Shown in pieces: positions 28,834 to 33,926 of a DNA stretch of 64,000 bases. This DNA is from Schlesneria paludicola DSM 18645 (GTDB lineage: Bacteria > Planctomycetota > Planctomycetia > Planctomycetales > Planctomycetaceae), in assembly GCA_945876035.1 (NCBI GenBank), contig CAMCMU010000014.1:1-64000 (forward strand). Reading direction: 5' to 3'. The position numbers and the translations under genes are program-made. The notes below the pieces were generated by a model. The model saw only the letters and a list, made by a program, of their open reading frames with translations, was not told the DNA's origin and made no database searches. Position 1 is the stretch's first letter. The number at the start of each line of letters is the position of its first letter.

Positions 28834-31119
28834 TTATTCGTCAGCACGGGGGCCGCGATGCGGTTCGAACATTGTGAGGGCTGCCCGTTCCGATTCATCA
28901 ACCGCATTAACCGCACGCTGATAAAGCCGTTCTTGACTGCGTATTGTGTCGGCGGACGAGTTTGTTTTGACGGCTTCGTATCGGCCATCCGGCAGCAGTT
29001 TTCTGGCTTTGACGTTATCCTGAAAATGAATTTTTAAAATGGATAACAACTTTGCGCGGCAGGCGGGGTCTTCCACAGGAACGAGCAATTCGACCCGCCG
29101 ATCGAGATTGCGGGGCATCCAATCGGCACTCGAAATAAACAGCCGTTCGTCTCCCCCATGGTAGAAATAAAGAATTCGGCTGTGTTCCAGAAAACGATCA
29201 ATGACTCCCGTGACACGGATGTTTTCGGAAAGCCCTGGGACACCAGGACGAAGGCAACAAATCCCGCGCACGTTCAGTCGGATTTTTACGCCCGCCTGTG
29301 ATGCCGCATAGAGCGCTTCAATCATCTGACCGTCCACCAGCGAATTCAGTTTTGCCATGATCAGAGCCTTTTGACCATGTTTTTTTCGCTCCGTTTCAGA
29401 CTCAATCATTTCTAAGAGCTTGTCTCGCAGTCCAATCGGCGCCATTTCGATCTGTCGAAATTGTTGCGGTTGCGAGTAACCGGTAATGGCATTGAAGAAT
29501 GCCGTCGCGTCCGCTCCAAGATTTTCATTGCAGGTTAGCAGGCTCGCGTCGCTGTACACGCGGGCGGTCATTTCGTTGTAGTTTCCAGTGCCAAAGTGAA
29601 CGTATCGCTGAATTCCCTGAGGCTCGCGACGCACGATCAGACAGATCTTAGCGTGGGTTTTTAATCGCTTCACCCCATAGATCACTTGAACTTCCGCCCG
29701 TTCAAGATCCCGAGCCCATTCGATATTTCGCAACTCGTCGAATCGGGCTTTCAATTCGACAACAACCGTGACATGTTTTCCCGATTGTGCCGCCCGTTTC
29801 AACGCGGCGACGATGGGGCTGTTGGAACTCGTGCGATAGAGAATTTGCTTGATGGCAAGCACCTCTGGATCGTCCGCCGCCTCTTCGATCAGTCGCACAA
29901 TCGGATCAAAGCTTTCGTAGGGGTGATAGAGCAACAGGTCACCACGGGAGATCGTTGTGAACAGACTTTCCGCGGGATCGATTTGTGGCACACGCTTCGG
30001 CGACCATATTTCGTAACGTAAGGCGTCGAAGCCCTGCGCATCGGAGAGCCGAAAAAAGGAAACCAGTCCAAGTGGTCCCGGAACGGCAAAGATCCACTCG
30101 CTGGAAACATGCAGGGCGGATTGCAGAAACTCGCGAACGACCGAGCTGCCATGATGATCCACCTCCAGCCGAACGCAGACACTTTGACGCCGTGCGTTGA
30201 CTAGTTCCTGCATTTCACGCAACAGGTCGAAGGCCTGATCCTCTTGGAGTTCTACGTCTGCGTTACGCGTGATGCGGAACGGAACGCACTCCTCGATCTG
30301 CTCACCGGGAAACAGTTGCGAGATAAACAAACGGACGACATCCTCCAACAGAATGAAGCTAAAACCGCTCTCCGAAGGAAGCGTCATGAACCTCTGTCGG
30401 TGACGCCCAAAAGGGACGATTGCAAAACGTGGTCCTGTTGTCCCGGTGGAAGGAGCTAGCCTGACACACAGGCTGATGGATTGATTCGTGAGATTGGGGA
30501 AAGTCGGTGTTTTTGCGGACGACAAAAACGTCGGACTGTCCGTCACGGTTTGCGATTCATCGTCTGCGACGGCAGACGCTTCGTTCGCAGAGTTTTTGTC
30601 CGGATCGCCCAATATCCCAAGCGATCGGTTCCCGTTTGGTTGTGGGGCCTTGTGCGAATCGACGGTCACAGCGATGGCCAACGGAGTCAGAACAGGAAAA
30701 ATTTCCTCTCTGAAGAGAGTTTGAACGTGCTCTTTTTGACGCTCGTCCAATTCTTCAAGACGGACTCGCCGGATGCCTGATTGGCACAGTGCCGGCTCGA
30801 GTTCTGATAGATAGAGCCGATACTGCTCCGATGTCAAAAAACTCATTCGCTGGCCAATGGCCTGCAGTTGCTCGCCAATCGTCATGCCATTCGAGTCAGT
30901 CCGCGATTCGCTGGCCGTGGCCAGCATTTGCAGGCTGCCGACGCGAACCATCGTGAATTCGTCTAAGTTCGAAGCGGTGATAGCCAGAAACCGCAGTCGT
31001 TCGAGCAATGGAATTGACGGATCACACGCCTCGTCCAAAACTCTCTGATTGAATTCAAGCCAGCTCAACTCACGATTAAAAAGGTGCGATTCAGCAGCCA
31101 TGCCGTGAAAGTATCCCAA
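28834..31119 (-). CDS. ppk1: Polyphosphate kinase 1
   Basis: FNRELSWLEFNQRVLDEA; KQILYRTSSNSPIVAALKRAAQSGKHVTVVVELKARFDE; KRLKTHAKI; FLEHSRILYFYHGG; likely start at internal MAAESHLF. Confidence 0.96.
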   Translation of the reverse strand: MGYFHGMAAESHLFNRELSWLEFNQRVLDEACDPSIPLLERLRFLAITASNLDEFTMVRVGSLQMLATASESRTDSNGMTIGEQLQAIGQRMSFLTSEQYRLYLSELEPALCQSGIRRVRLEELDERQKEHVQTLFREEIFPVLTPLAIAVTVDSHKAPQPNGNRSLGILGDPDKNSANEASAVADDESQTVTDSPTFLSSAKTPTFPNLTNQSISLCVRLAPSTGTTGPRFAIVPFGRHRQRFMTLPSESGFSFILLEDVVRLFISQLFPGEQIEECVPFRITRNADVELQEDQAFDLLREMQELVNARRQSVCVRLEVDHHGSSVVREFLQSALHVSSEWIFAVPGPLGLVSFFRLSDAQGFDALRYEIWSPKRVPQIDPAESLFTTISRGDLLLYHPYESFDPIVRLIEEAADDPEVLAIKQILYRTSSNSPIVAALKRAAQSGKHVTVVVELKARFDELRNIEWARDLERAEVQVIYGVKRLKTHAKICLIVRREPQGIQRYVHFGTGNYNEMTARVYSDASLLTCNENLGADATAFFNAITGYSQPQQFRQIEMAPIGLRDKLLEMIESETERKKHGQKALIMAKLNSLVDGQMIEALYAASQAGVKIRLNVRGICCLRPGVPGLSENIRVTGVIDRFLEHSRILYFYHGGDERLFISSADWMPRNLDRRVELLVPVEDPACRAKLLSILKIHFQDNVKARKLLPDGRYEAVKTNSSADTIRSQERLYQRAVNAVDESERAALTMFEPHRGPRADE

Positions 31120-31449: not shown

Positions 31450-31662
31450 ATGAATGTCTCTTCTATCTCTGTTTTGGCTGGTACCGCATCGTTTGGACTA
31501 TTGGGAATGTTTCTTTTACTTCTGGGATTCAAGGCTTTTGAATTGATTACAACGCGTCTCGATGTCGAAAAGCAGCTTGCCGAGGGCAATTATGCTGTTG
31601 CGATTGTGGTGGCGACCATCATGATCTCCTTGAGCTGGATCATCGTACACTCCATGACCTGA
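31450..31662 (+). CDS. DUF350 small membrane protein (YjfL-like)
   Basis: FGLLGMFLLLLGFKAFELITTRLDVEKQLAEGNYAVAIVVATIMISLSWIIVHS. Confidence 0.85.
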   Translation: MNVSSISVLAGTASFGLLGMFLLLLGFKAFELITTRLDVEKQLAEGNYAVAIVVATIMISLSWIIVHSMT

Positions 31663-31735
31663 AAAATCTCGCTCATTCCCGCAACACAGACCTTCCGGCA
31701 GATCCTCACTCAGTCGTTATGGATGCGTGTGAAAT

Positions 31736-32203
31736 ATGTCAAAAAAAAGTTTTCGTGTGGTCCTCACGCTTCTCGGATCGGGCGCATTCGCCAGCGGCTG
31801 TTCACACGAGTATTCGGAAACGAAAGAGGCCGCCTTTACGTCGCAAATCGATTTGGAGCAGGACCACGATCCTCTGCGTGAGCAGGACACACCACAAACC
31901 GTGACAGACCAAAATTCGGCCGGCTCGACATCGGCCGTGGAACCGGGTTCCGCCAAGACTCAAACCAGACATTCGCACTACCGCGGGTCATCCATGATGT
32001 GGCCGCTGCTCTGGATGATGTCGTCGGGTTCTCATTCGTCTTACAACCGTCCGCCCATTTCGGGGCGTGGTTTAGCCTCACCGAGTTCACCGAGGTACTC
32101 CCCGGCAGGAACAGGGGGATCCGTTCCTGTCCAAAGCACGGCGGGGTCTGTCAACGCACACGGGTTTGGAAAAACGGGGCGGGCGATTTCGGGAGGCTCG
32201 TAA
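31736..32203 (+). CDS. Secreted lipoprotein, Ser/Gly/Pro-rich tail, possibly DUF1190/YjfM-like
   Basis: Lipobox-like LGSGAFASGC; SHYRGSSMMWPLLWMMSSGSHSS...AHGFGKTGRAISGGS; stop overlaps next start (TAATG). Confidence 0.65.
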   Translation: MSKKSFRVVLTLLGSGAFASGCSHEYSETKEAAFTSQIDLEQDHDPLREQDTPQTVTDQNSAGSTSAVEPGSAKTQTRHSHYRGSSMMWPLLWMMSSGSHSSYNRPPISGRGLASPSSPRYSPAGTGGSVPVQSTAGSVNAHGFGKTGRAISGGS

Positions 32204-33327
32204 TGCATCGTCGAGAAATTGCACCCCGCCGAGACTGGCAGCGATGCGTCGAAGACCAAGGTCTCGCCTTTCACACGATTGACGGCGATCTTTATTGGGA
32301 TGAATCCGCGTACTACGAATTTACGTCGATGGAGATCGACTTGCTCGAATCGGCCACGAATGCGCTACAGGCGATGTGTCTCCACGCCGTGCAGCATGTG
32401 TTTGATGAAAACCGGATGTGTGAATTTCAGATTCCGACGGTGATGCAGGAATGGGTACGCGCCAGCTGGGATCGGGATGACCCGAGTCTTTACGGACGAT
32501 TCGATCTGGCTTACGACGGTGTAAGGCCACCGCAGTTGCTGGAATACAATGCCGATACACCGACCTCTTTGTTAGAGGCCGGAGCCATTCAATGGTTCTG
32601 GTTGCAAGACGTCAATCGTCGTGCCGACCAGTTCAACAGCATTCATGAACAGTTGCTCCAGACGTGGGCGAAGTTTTACGAAAACTGCAACCAACCCCTT
32701 TATTTCACGTCGGTCGAAAATCACGAGGAGGATTTCGGAAACGTCCGGTACCTGCAGGATACGGCCGAACAAGCCGGCCTCCGGACCGTCTATGTGCCCC
32801 TCGAAAAAATCGCCTTCGATTTGGATTCCCAACAGTTCCTCGACCCGAGTGGATCGCCGATCGGCACGTTGTTCAAGCTCTACCCTTGGGAGTGGATGCT
32901 GCAGGAGGAATTTGGGAGACATCTTCCCGTGGCGCCCACACACTGGATCGAGCCACCATGGAAAATGCTGTTGAGTAACAAATCGCTTCTCGTGGTCATG
33001 TGGGAACTCTTTCCGGATTCCCCCTATCTGTTACCTGCTGCTTACACGCCGATGGGGTCGTCTTACGTCTGCAAGCCGTGCCTCTCTCGAGAAGGAAGCA
33101 ATGTCTCAATTTTCCACGGTGGGACTCAGATTGACGGCACATCGGGTCCTTATGTCACGGGACCGAGGGTGTATCAGGAATATCACGAACTGCCGGTTTT
33201 CTCCGGAAATTATCCCGTCATTGGCAGTTGGATCGTGGGCGGTGAAGCCTGTGGACTAGGAGTTCGCGAAGACCGGTCACGCATCACTCACAACATGAGT
33301 CGCTTCGTCCCACACCTGTTTTTTTGA
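32203..33327 (+). CDS. Glutathionylspermidine-synthase-family ATP-grasp protein (YjfC/YgiC-like)
   Basis: ORF 31999..33327, likely ATG 32203; LYGRFDLAYDGVRPPQLLEYNADTPTSLLEAGAIQWFW; PPWKMLLSNKSLLVVMWELFPDSPYLLPAAY; KPCLSREGSNVSI. Confidence 0.92.
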   Translation: MHRREIAPRRDWQRCVEDQGLAFHTIDGDLYWDESAYYEFTSMEIDLLESATNALQAMCLHAVQHVFDENRMCEFQIPTVMQEWVRASWDRDDPSLYGRFDLAYDGVRPPQLLEYNADTPTSLLEAGAIQWFWLQDVNRRADQFNSIHEQLLQTWAKFYENCNQPLYFTSVENHEEDFGNVRYLQDTAEQAGLRTVYVPLEKIAFDLDSQQFLDPSGSPIGTLFKLYPWEWMLQEEFGRHLPVAPTHWIEPPWKMLLSNKSLLVVMWELFPDSPYLLPAAYTPMGSSYVCKPCLSREGSNVSIFHGGTQIDGTSGPYVTGPRVYQEYHELPVFSGNYPVIGSWIVGGEACGLGVREDRSRITHNMSRFVPHLFF

Positions 33328-33518: not shown

Positions 33519-33926
33519 ATGAAAATGACAGTCGTCTGGTGTGGTGTGGTGTTGAGTCACCTGTGGATCACGACGGTAAGTGCCTTCCCGCCGATTCCGG
33601 CTCAAATCAAAGAGACTCTGAAAGACAACAAGGTCTATCAACCGTTTCTTGATACGCTGGATGGTCTCACGAGCAAATGCGACGTGTGCCACAAACCGGG
33701 TGCGGATAAGAAGGGCAAAGGGCATGGGTTGAACGACTTTGGAAAAGTCTTTCATGATCGATTTGAAGCCAAAAATTACAAAAAATCTCAAGACGAGAAA
33801 AAAACGTCCGAGGCACTCAAGCTCTTTCAGGCTGCGTGGGATAAGTCCGTCATCGAGCGGACCAGCGACGGAAAAGTTTACGGCGATCTCATGAAATCCG
33901 GCTTGTTGCCGAGCAAGAATGAATAG
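33519..33926 (+). CDS. Small secreted protein with a single CxxCH haem-binding motif
   Basis: Signal peptide MKMTVVWCGVVLSHLWITTVSA; SKCDVCHKPG. Confidence 0.7.
   Translation: MKMTVVWCGVVLSHLWITTVSAFPPIPAQIKETLKDNKVYQPFLDTLDGLTSKCDVCHKPGADKKGKGHGLNDFGKVFHDRFEAKNYKKSQDEKKTSEALKLFQAAWDKSVIERTSDGKVYGDLMKSGLLPSKNE

Follow-up and report, generated by a model that had tools for sequence, protein, structure and literature searches.

A planctomycete DUF350, lipoprotein and ATP-grasp ligase cassette and a lipoprotein C-terminal tail as the candidate ligase substrate

The cassette and its products

The window, by which we mean the whole stretch of 64,000 nucleotides analysed here, carries three consecutive plus-strand open reading frames encoding a DUF350 protein, a lipoprotein and an ATP-grasp amide ligase (Table 1). 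A preceding sequence-only reading had described this row of ORFs, with products of 70 and about 374 residues for the first and the last, and an overlap of the last two as TAATG; we recovered both (products of 70, 155 and 374 residues), the lipoprotein stop and the ligase start having one base in common. The matches to DUF350 (6.7e-11) and GSP_synth (1.7e-146) indicate that the cassette ORFs are genes rather than chance frames, and at the ends of the lipoprotein synonymous differences are in strong excess over non-synonymous ones. Rfam, promoter and terminator scans gave no signal above chance. The cassette is flanked by a divergent polyphosphate kinase 1 gene (28834-31119, minus strand) and by a small secreted CxxCH protein (33519-33926), with no adjacent PspA/DUF2170 dyad.

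Table 1. Features of the cassette in the window.
Feature	Position	Strand	Basis
DUF350 protein, 70 aa	31450..31662	+	Pfam PF03994, 6.7e-11
Lipoprotein, predicted ligase substrate, 155 aa	31736..32203	+	FASGC lipobox, Cys22
Lipoprotein signal peptide, conserved, MSKKSFRVVLTLLGSGAFASGC	31736..31801	+	hhalign to DUF1190 proteins, 97% probability
Lipoprotein C-terminal tail, AHGFGKTGRAISGGS	32156..32200	+	variant (HGFG) of the general RGGFG...G-G/S tail
GGAGG ribosome-binding site of ligase	32192..32196	+	within lipoprotein tail codons, read from sequence
YgiC/YjfC-type ATP-grasp amide ligase, 374 aa	32203..33327	+	PF03738, 1.7e-146
Ligase catalytic stretch R99-T121 (R99, D101, E114, N116, T119, T121)	32497..32565	+	invariant in 114/114 aligned ligases

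The ligase matches PF03738 over its full length (488.6 bits against a curated cut-off of 29.3), and its closest solved structures are those of YgiC (PDB 7uk8, 3e-99) and YjfC (7uk6, 8.5e-93). Its active-site residues align one to one with those of glutathionylspermidine synthetase (Gss): the six catalytic-stretch residues of Table 1 correspond to Gss R316, D318, E330, N332, S335 and S337, and K260, K291 and R296 to E. coli Gss K498, K533 and R538. In Gss, R316, D318, E330, N332, K498, K533 and R538 serve in binding of ATP, of Mg and of the acyl phosphate; on this alignment the ligase retains all ATP/Mg residues of Gss, and its active site is intact. At the positions of S335 and S337, the glutathione-contact serines of Gss, all 114 aligned ligases have Thr. 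The window enzyme further differs from Gss and trypanothione synthetase in having no amidase domain and a lipoprotein as its genetic partner. A bifunctional Gss was considered and rejected, as the protein has 374 rather than about 619 residues, matches PF03738 only and lacks the N-terminal amidase domain; against NF007801 it scored 144 bits (cut-off 882). By sequence and active site the window ligase is a member of the YgiC/YjfC family. Pederick 2023, as cited in PMC12568646, reports E. coli YgiC and YjfC to be active as peptide-spermidine ligases, so that the earlier description of the function of these genes as unresolved is, going by that report, partly out of date; the RefSeq product name likewise gives YgiC/YjfC as peptide-spermidine ligase.

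With 42.8 bits the DUF350 protein exceeds the cut-off of 26, the match covering only positions 70-133 of the 133 in the PF03994 profile. It is a single two-helix unit of half length and not the two-repeat, four-helix form, and it is the sole DUF350 of the genome. Its position is unchanged in members of the genus and in L027. A DUF350 lies near the ligase in at least 40 of 115 loci, a lower bound given that many loci came with just 1.5 kb of flank, and from this count it looks accessory rather than core. In one genus member (G007, locus L209) DUF350 adjoins a radical-SAM-like protein, with no ligase.

The lipoprotein is mostly low-complexity, and comparison with Pfam, NCBIfam and PHROGs yielded no match for it. 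It had been proposed as a DUF1190 protein (PF06693), an assignment that we rejected: neither Pfam nor profile comparison gave a domain match, the region aligned by hhalign to DUF1190 proteins being the signal peptide alone, and the four conserved cysteines (invariant C45, C55, C79 and C88 in DUF1190) are absent, the window protein having one Cys (Cys22). At its ends it may resemble DUF1190 proteins with their K-R-S signal peptide and RGGFG tail: the signal peptide aligns, and the tail is present as the HGFG variant; judged from these alignments, the lipoprotein and DUF1190 proteins seem to have a signal peptide and a C-terminal tail in common, not a domain. Among 59 tail lipoproteins 24 have a DUF1190 Pfam match, and the window protein has none. 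The signal peptide of the tail lipoproteins, that at 31736-31801 included, is conserved across phyla (M-K-R/K-S-x-x-I/V-x-L), which is unusual for a signal peptide.

Conserved gene pair and conserved C-terminal tail

In members of the genus DUF350, lipoprotein and ligase occur together in unchanged order, and likewise in a more distant planctomycete; the contig of one member (G004) starts just inside DUF350, whose last part is still visible. A profile of the lipoprotein found it in all eight ligase-bearing genus members searched (G000, G001, G002, G004, G005, G006, G009 and G014) and in none of seven ligase-less ones. Outside the genus, the ligase is absent from the sampled family members (22 other genera). 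When contigs were scanned genome-wide with the single protein as query, just four relatives came back. One genus member (G009) has a second ligase ORF (L029, contig C63) that is N-terminally truncated, has no lipoprotein and is probably decaying. The adjacent monohaem CxxCH ORF, which the sequence-only reading had left as a possible member, was rejected as a fourth gene, since it stands beside the ligase in the window only and has no counterpart near the ligase of any relative.

The correspondence to YjfL/YjfM/YjfC and the conservation in related genomes that had been put forward proved right. E. coli yjfL-yjfM-yjfC has the same order of DUF350, lipoprotein and ligase, and the planctomycete cassette is a compact version of it: YjfL has four helices whereas the window DUF350 has half that length, and the window lipoprotein lacks the DUF1190 domain and its cysteines. 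YjfM and YgiB have the same kind of C-terminal tail. The ligases of ygiB-ygiC and yjfC are similar to that of the window over the full length (43% identity to YgiC). The cassette probably works like YjfL/YjfM/YjfC. Unlike the PSP-linked yjfIJKLMC-type operon, it has no adjacent PspA, DUF2170 or DUF2491. The PSP-linked polyamine operons of PMC11237479 (groups 2 and 3) likewise combine DUF350 and a lipoprotein with an enzyme, which is either the ATP-grasp ligase or a protein of the 7TM spermidine synthase-like kind; the accessible part of that paper mentions neither a shared C-terminal tail nor the lipoprotein as substrate, and in the window PspA is not adjacent.

Ligase loci were gathered from sequenced phages, from IMG/VR contigs and from four phyla, namely Planctomycetota, Pseudomonadota, Actinomycetota and one other, and were dereplicated to one per 80% identity cluster with 600 bases upstream required (n = 110). 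At 83 of the 110, an upstream same-strand ORF carries GGFG within 60 residues of its C-terminus, as compared to 2/429 other same-strand and 3/1010 opposite-strand ORFs of the same loci (5/1439 in total) and 133/17800 shuffled tail proteins. The strict pattern was found downstream of the ligase in 7 further loci, bringing GGFG neighbours to 90/110. Since it excludes variants such as the HGFG of the window, a second pass counted these as well and added tails (HGFG, SGFG, QGFG, GGWG) in 11 loci, including the window (HGFG) and the sister L017; the remaining 9/110 have no tail near the ligase within the available flanks. Otherwise the tailed neighbour proteins are mostly unalignable, and their middles look unrelated between classes. 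E. coli YgiB ends TRGGFGE...SMGG and YjfM ends SRGGYG...WGG.

The very end of the tail is constrained: 98/98 tails have G, S, A or E as their last residue (C-1) and 75/98 have Gly as the penultimate one (C-2), while shuffles within the last 15 residues gave 69 ± 5 and 39 ± 5, respectively. The conservation of so Gly/Ser-rich a tail could be partly compositional, though these within-tail shuffles fall short of it. Within the genus, the last 16 codon positions show 103 synonymous and 19 non-synonymous differences and the first 24 show 159 and 39, whereas the middle shows 285 and 835, to which 310 mismatches with gaps are added. Thus, the tail and the signal peptide are under purifying selection and the middle of the lipoprotein is drifting.

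The ligase tree mixes bacterial and phage groups, showing that the tail is not limited to one lineage. Since IMG/VR contigs may hold non-viral sequence, the phage claim rests on the named phages, Motura, vB_OspM_OC and 50AhydR13PP; for one Acinetobacter entry among the phage records, the neighbourhood looks bacterial. Several of the distant PF03738 loci taken as a contrast set (L034-L052) have GGFG in a clearly different downstream protein family, which makes this set an unclean negative control. A literature search outside subscription sources, which does not establish priority, returned no paper pairing the RGGFG tail with DUF1190, YgiB or YjfM.

The lipoprotein tail as candidate substrate

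The sequence-only reading had suggested that the ligase modifies a peptide, a polyamine or the lipoprotein tail. The last of these is now the best-supported reading, given the tail, the constraint on its terminal residues and its co-occurrence with the ligase, and the tail is what we infer to be the substrate. With the peptide-spermidine ligase activity of YgiC/YjfC on one side and the tail on the other, the simplest model is polyamine amidation of the lipoprotein C-terminus, and we consider it rather probable, going by sequence comparison, that the ligase forms an amide at the C-terminal carboxylate of its partner's tail, probably with a polyamine. The lipoprotein would then be a membrane-tethered peptide substrate in which a disordered, drifting linker connects the signal peptide and its lipid anchor to the conserved tail. 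Translated from the overlapping frame, the ligase would phosphorylate the tail carboxylate with ATP, and the activated tail would be coupled to an amine, most likely a polyamine, much as glutathionylspermidine synthetase acts on the C-terminal Gly of glutathione, so that an envelope lipoprotein would bear a positively charged amide at its free end. A cytosolic ATP-dependent ligase would need access to this C-terminus before export, and the reaction would fall before or during export. DUF350, a frequent membrane partner, may bind or hand on the modified tail.

Docking is also commonly achieved by conserved linear motifs that terminate a disordered linker, and the tail could be bound by the ligase yet stay unmodified. 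It might thus serve to recruit the ligase or DUF350 to the membrane, the true substrate being another peptide or a small cytosolic metabolite. The effect of the Min system on YgiC membrane association (PMC4858940) and the occurrence of DUF350 and tailed-lipoprotein pairs also away from the ligase (L199 and L200) would fit such a role. It leaves unexplained, however, why the constraint is greatest on the very last two residues, given that for binding alone a fixed chemical end would be unnecessary, and it likewise does not account for Lys-ended tails beside an amine-using enzyme (see below). We regard docking as unlikely, if still worth weighing.

Gss and trypanothione synthetase, the closest well-studied enzymes and ones that the ligase resembles, make peptide-polyamine metabolites. 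The ligase might similarly produce a small glutathionylspermidine analogue that the lipoprotein and DUF350 sense or transport, and the ties of DUF350 and DUF1190 to envelope stress and polyamine operons in PMC11237479 are in keeping with this. Yet YgiC is reported to be without Gss activity (PMC12506659), and on this view it is unexplained why proteins that are otherwise unrelated should nearly all carry the C-terminal tail, so that we judge this to be quite improbable. We give still less credence to the idea that the tail joins the lipoprotein to some other envelope amine, for example of peptidoglycan or a protein, as an anchor: the terminal Gly/Ser and the tethered design would fit covalent anchoring, but known members take spermidine, and the ligase, which has no signal peptide and requires ATP, should act in the cytoplasm.

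In keeping with a polyamine as the amine, a homospermidine synthase gene adjoins the pair at two loci, L086 and that of phage Motura. In the genome of the window neither the saccharopine-type nor the deoxyhypusine-synthase-type homospermidine synthase was found, the first of these searches having been run without a positive control. In Achromobacter phage Motura (L062:1803-4628) the genes for homospermidine synthase, tailed lipoprotein and ligase are consecutive, and DUF350 follows some 1.4 kb downstream, measured from the start of the ligase. If confirmed, the model would mean a C-terminal lipoprotein modification across several phyla and some large phages, and DUF350 and DUF1190 would gain a role.

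Second pairs of DUF350 and GGFG-tailed lipoprotein occur in two genomes, G047 and G051 (L199:1402-2295 and L200:146-876); as they are distant from the ligase, one ligase may serve several tails.

A parallel operon with Lys-ended proteins

Three ligase-less members of the genus (G010-G012) have DUF350 together with a small secreted protein and a 7TM spermidine synthase-like enzyme, an arrangement matched by a second operon type with such an enzyme in PMC11237479. The small secreted protein ends SSGGFGGGGK (RSSGGFGGGGK in G011 and G012). Near relatives of this enzyme, a membrane aminopropyltransferase, in other phyla, Lys is the final residue of 20 of 22 candidate partner proteins that are anchored, compared to 69 of 1120 ORFs generally, and the remaining two resemble out-of-frame ORFs. 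Lys is a residue that could be used by an aminopropyltransferase.

Small-residue tail ends would thus go with a carboxylate-activating ligase and amine (Lys) ends with an aminopropyl-transferring enzyme, a pattern that was recognised after the fact and that the sequences suggest. Lys-ended tails beside membrane aminopropyltransferases constitute a second, independent prediction. More generally, in bacteria and phages the C-terminus of a membrane-tethered tail may receive a polyamine-like group by either of two routes whose enzymes are unrelated: tails with G/S/A/E ends at their carboxylate from an ATP-grasp ligase, and tails with a terminal Lys at that residue from a membrane aminopropyltransferase. 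DUF350 often accompanies both enzymes. We hold this broader proposal at a little under an even chance.

The operons that combine DUF350 with the membrane spermidine synthase-like enzyme and a small anchored Lys-ended protein (ends such as GGGPGFGK, RGLRGGK and PTHK) are those of loci L198, L201, L202, L210-L227 and L240-L257.
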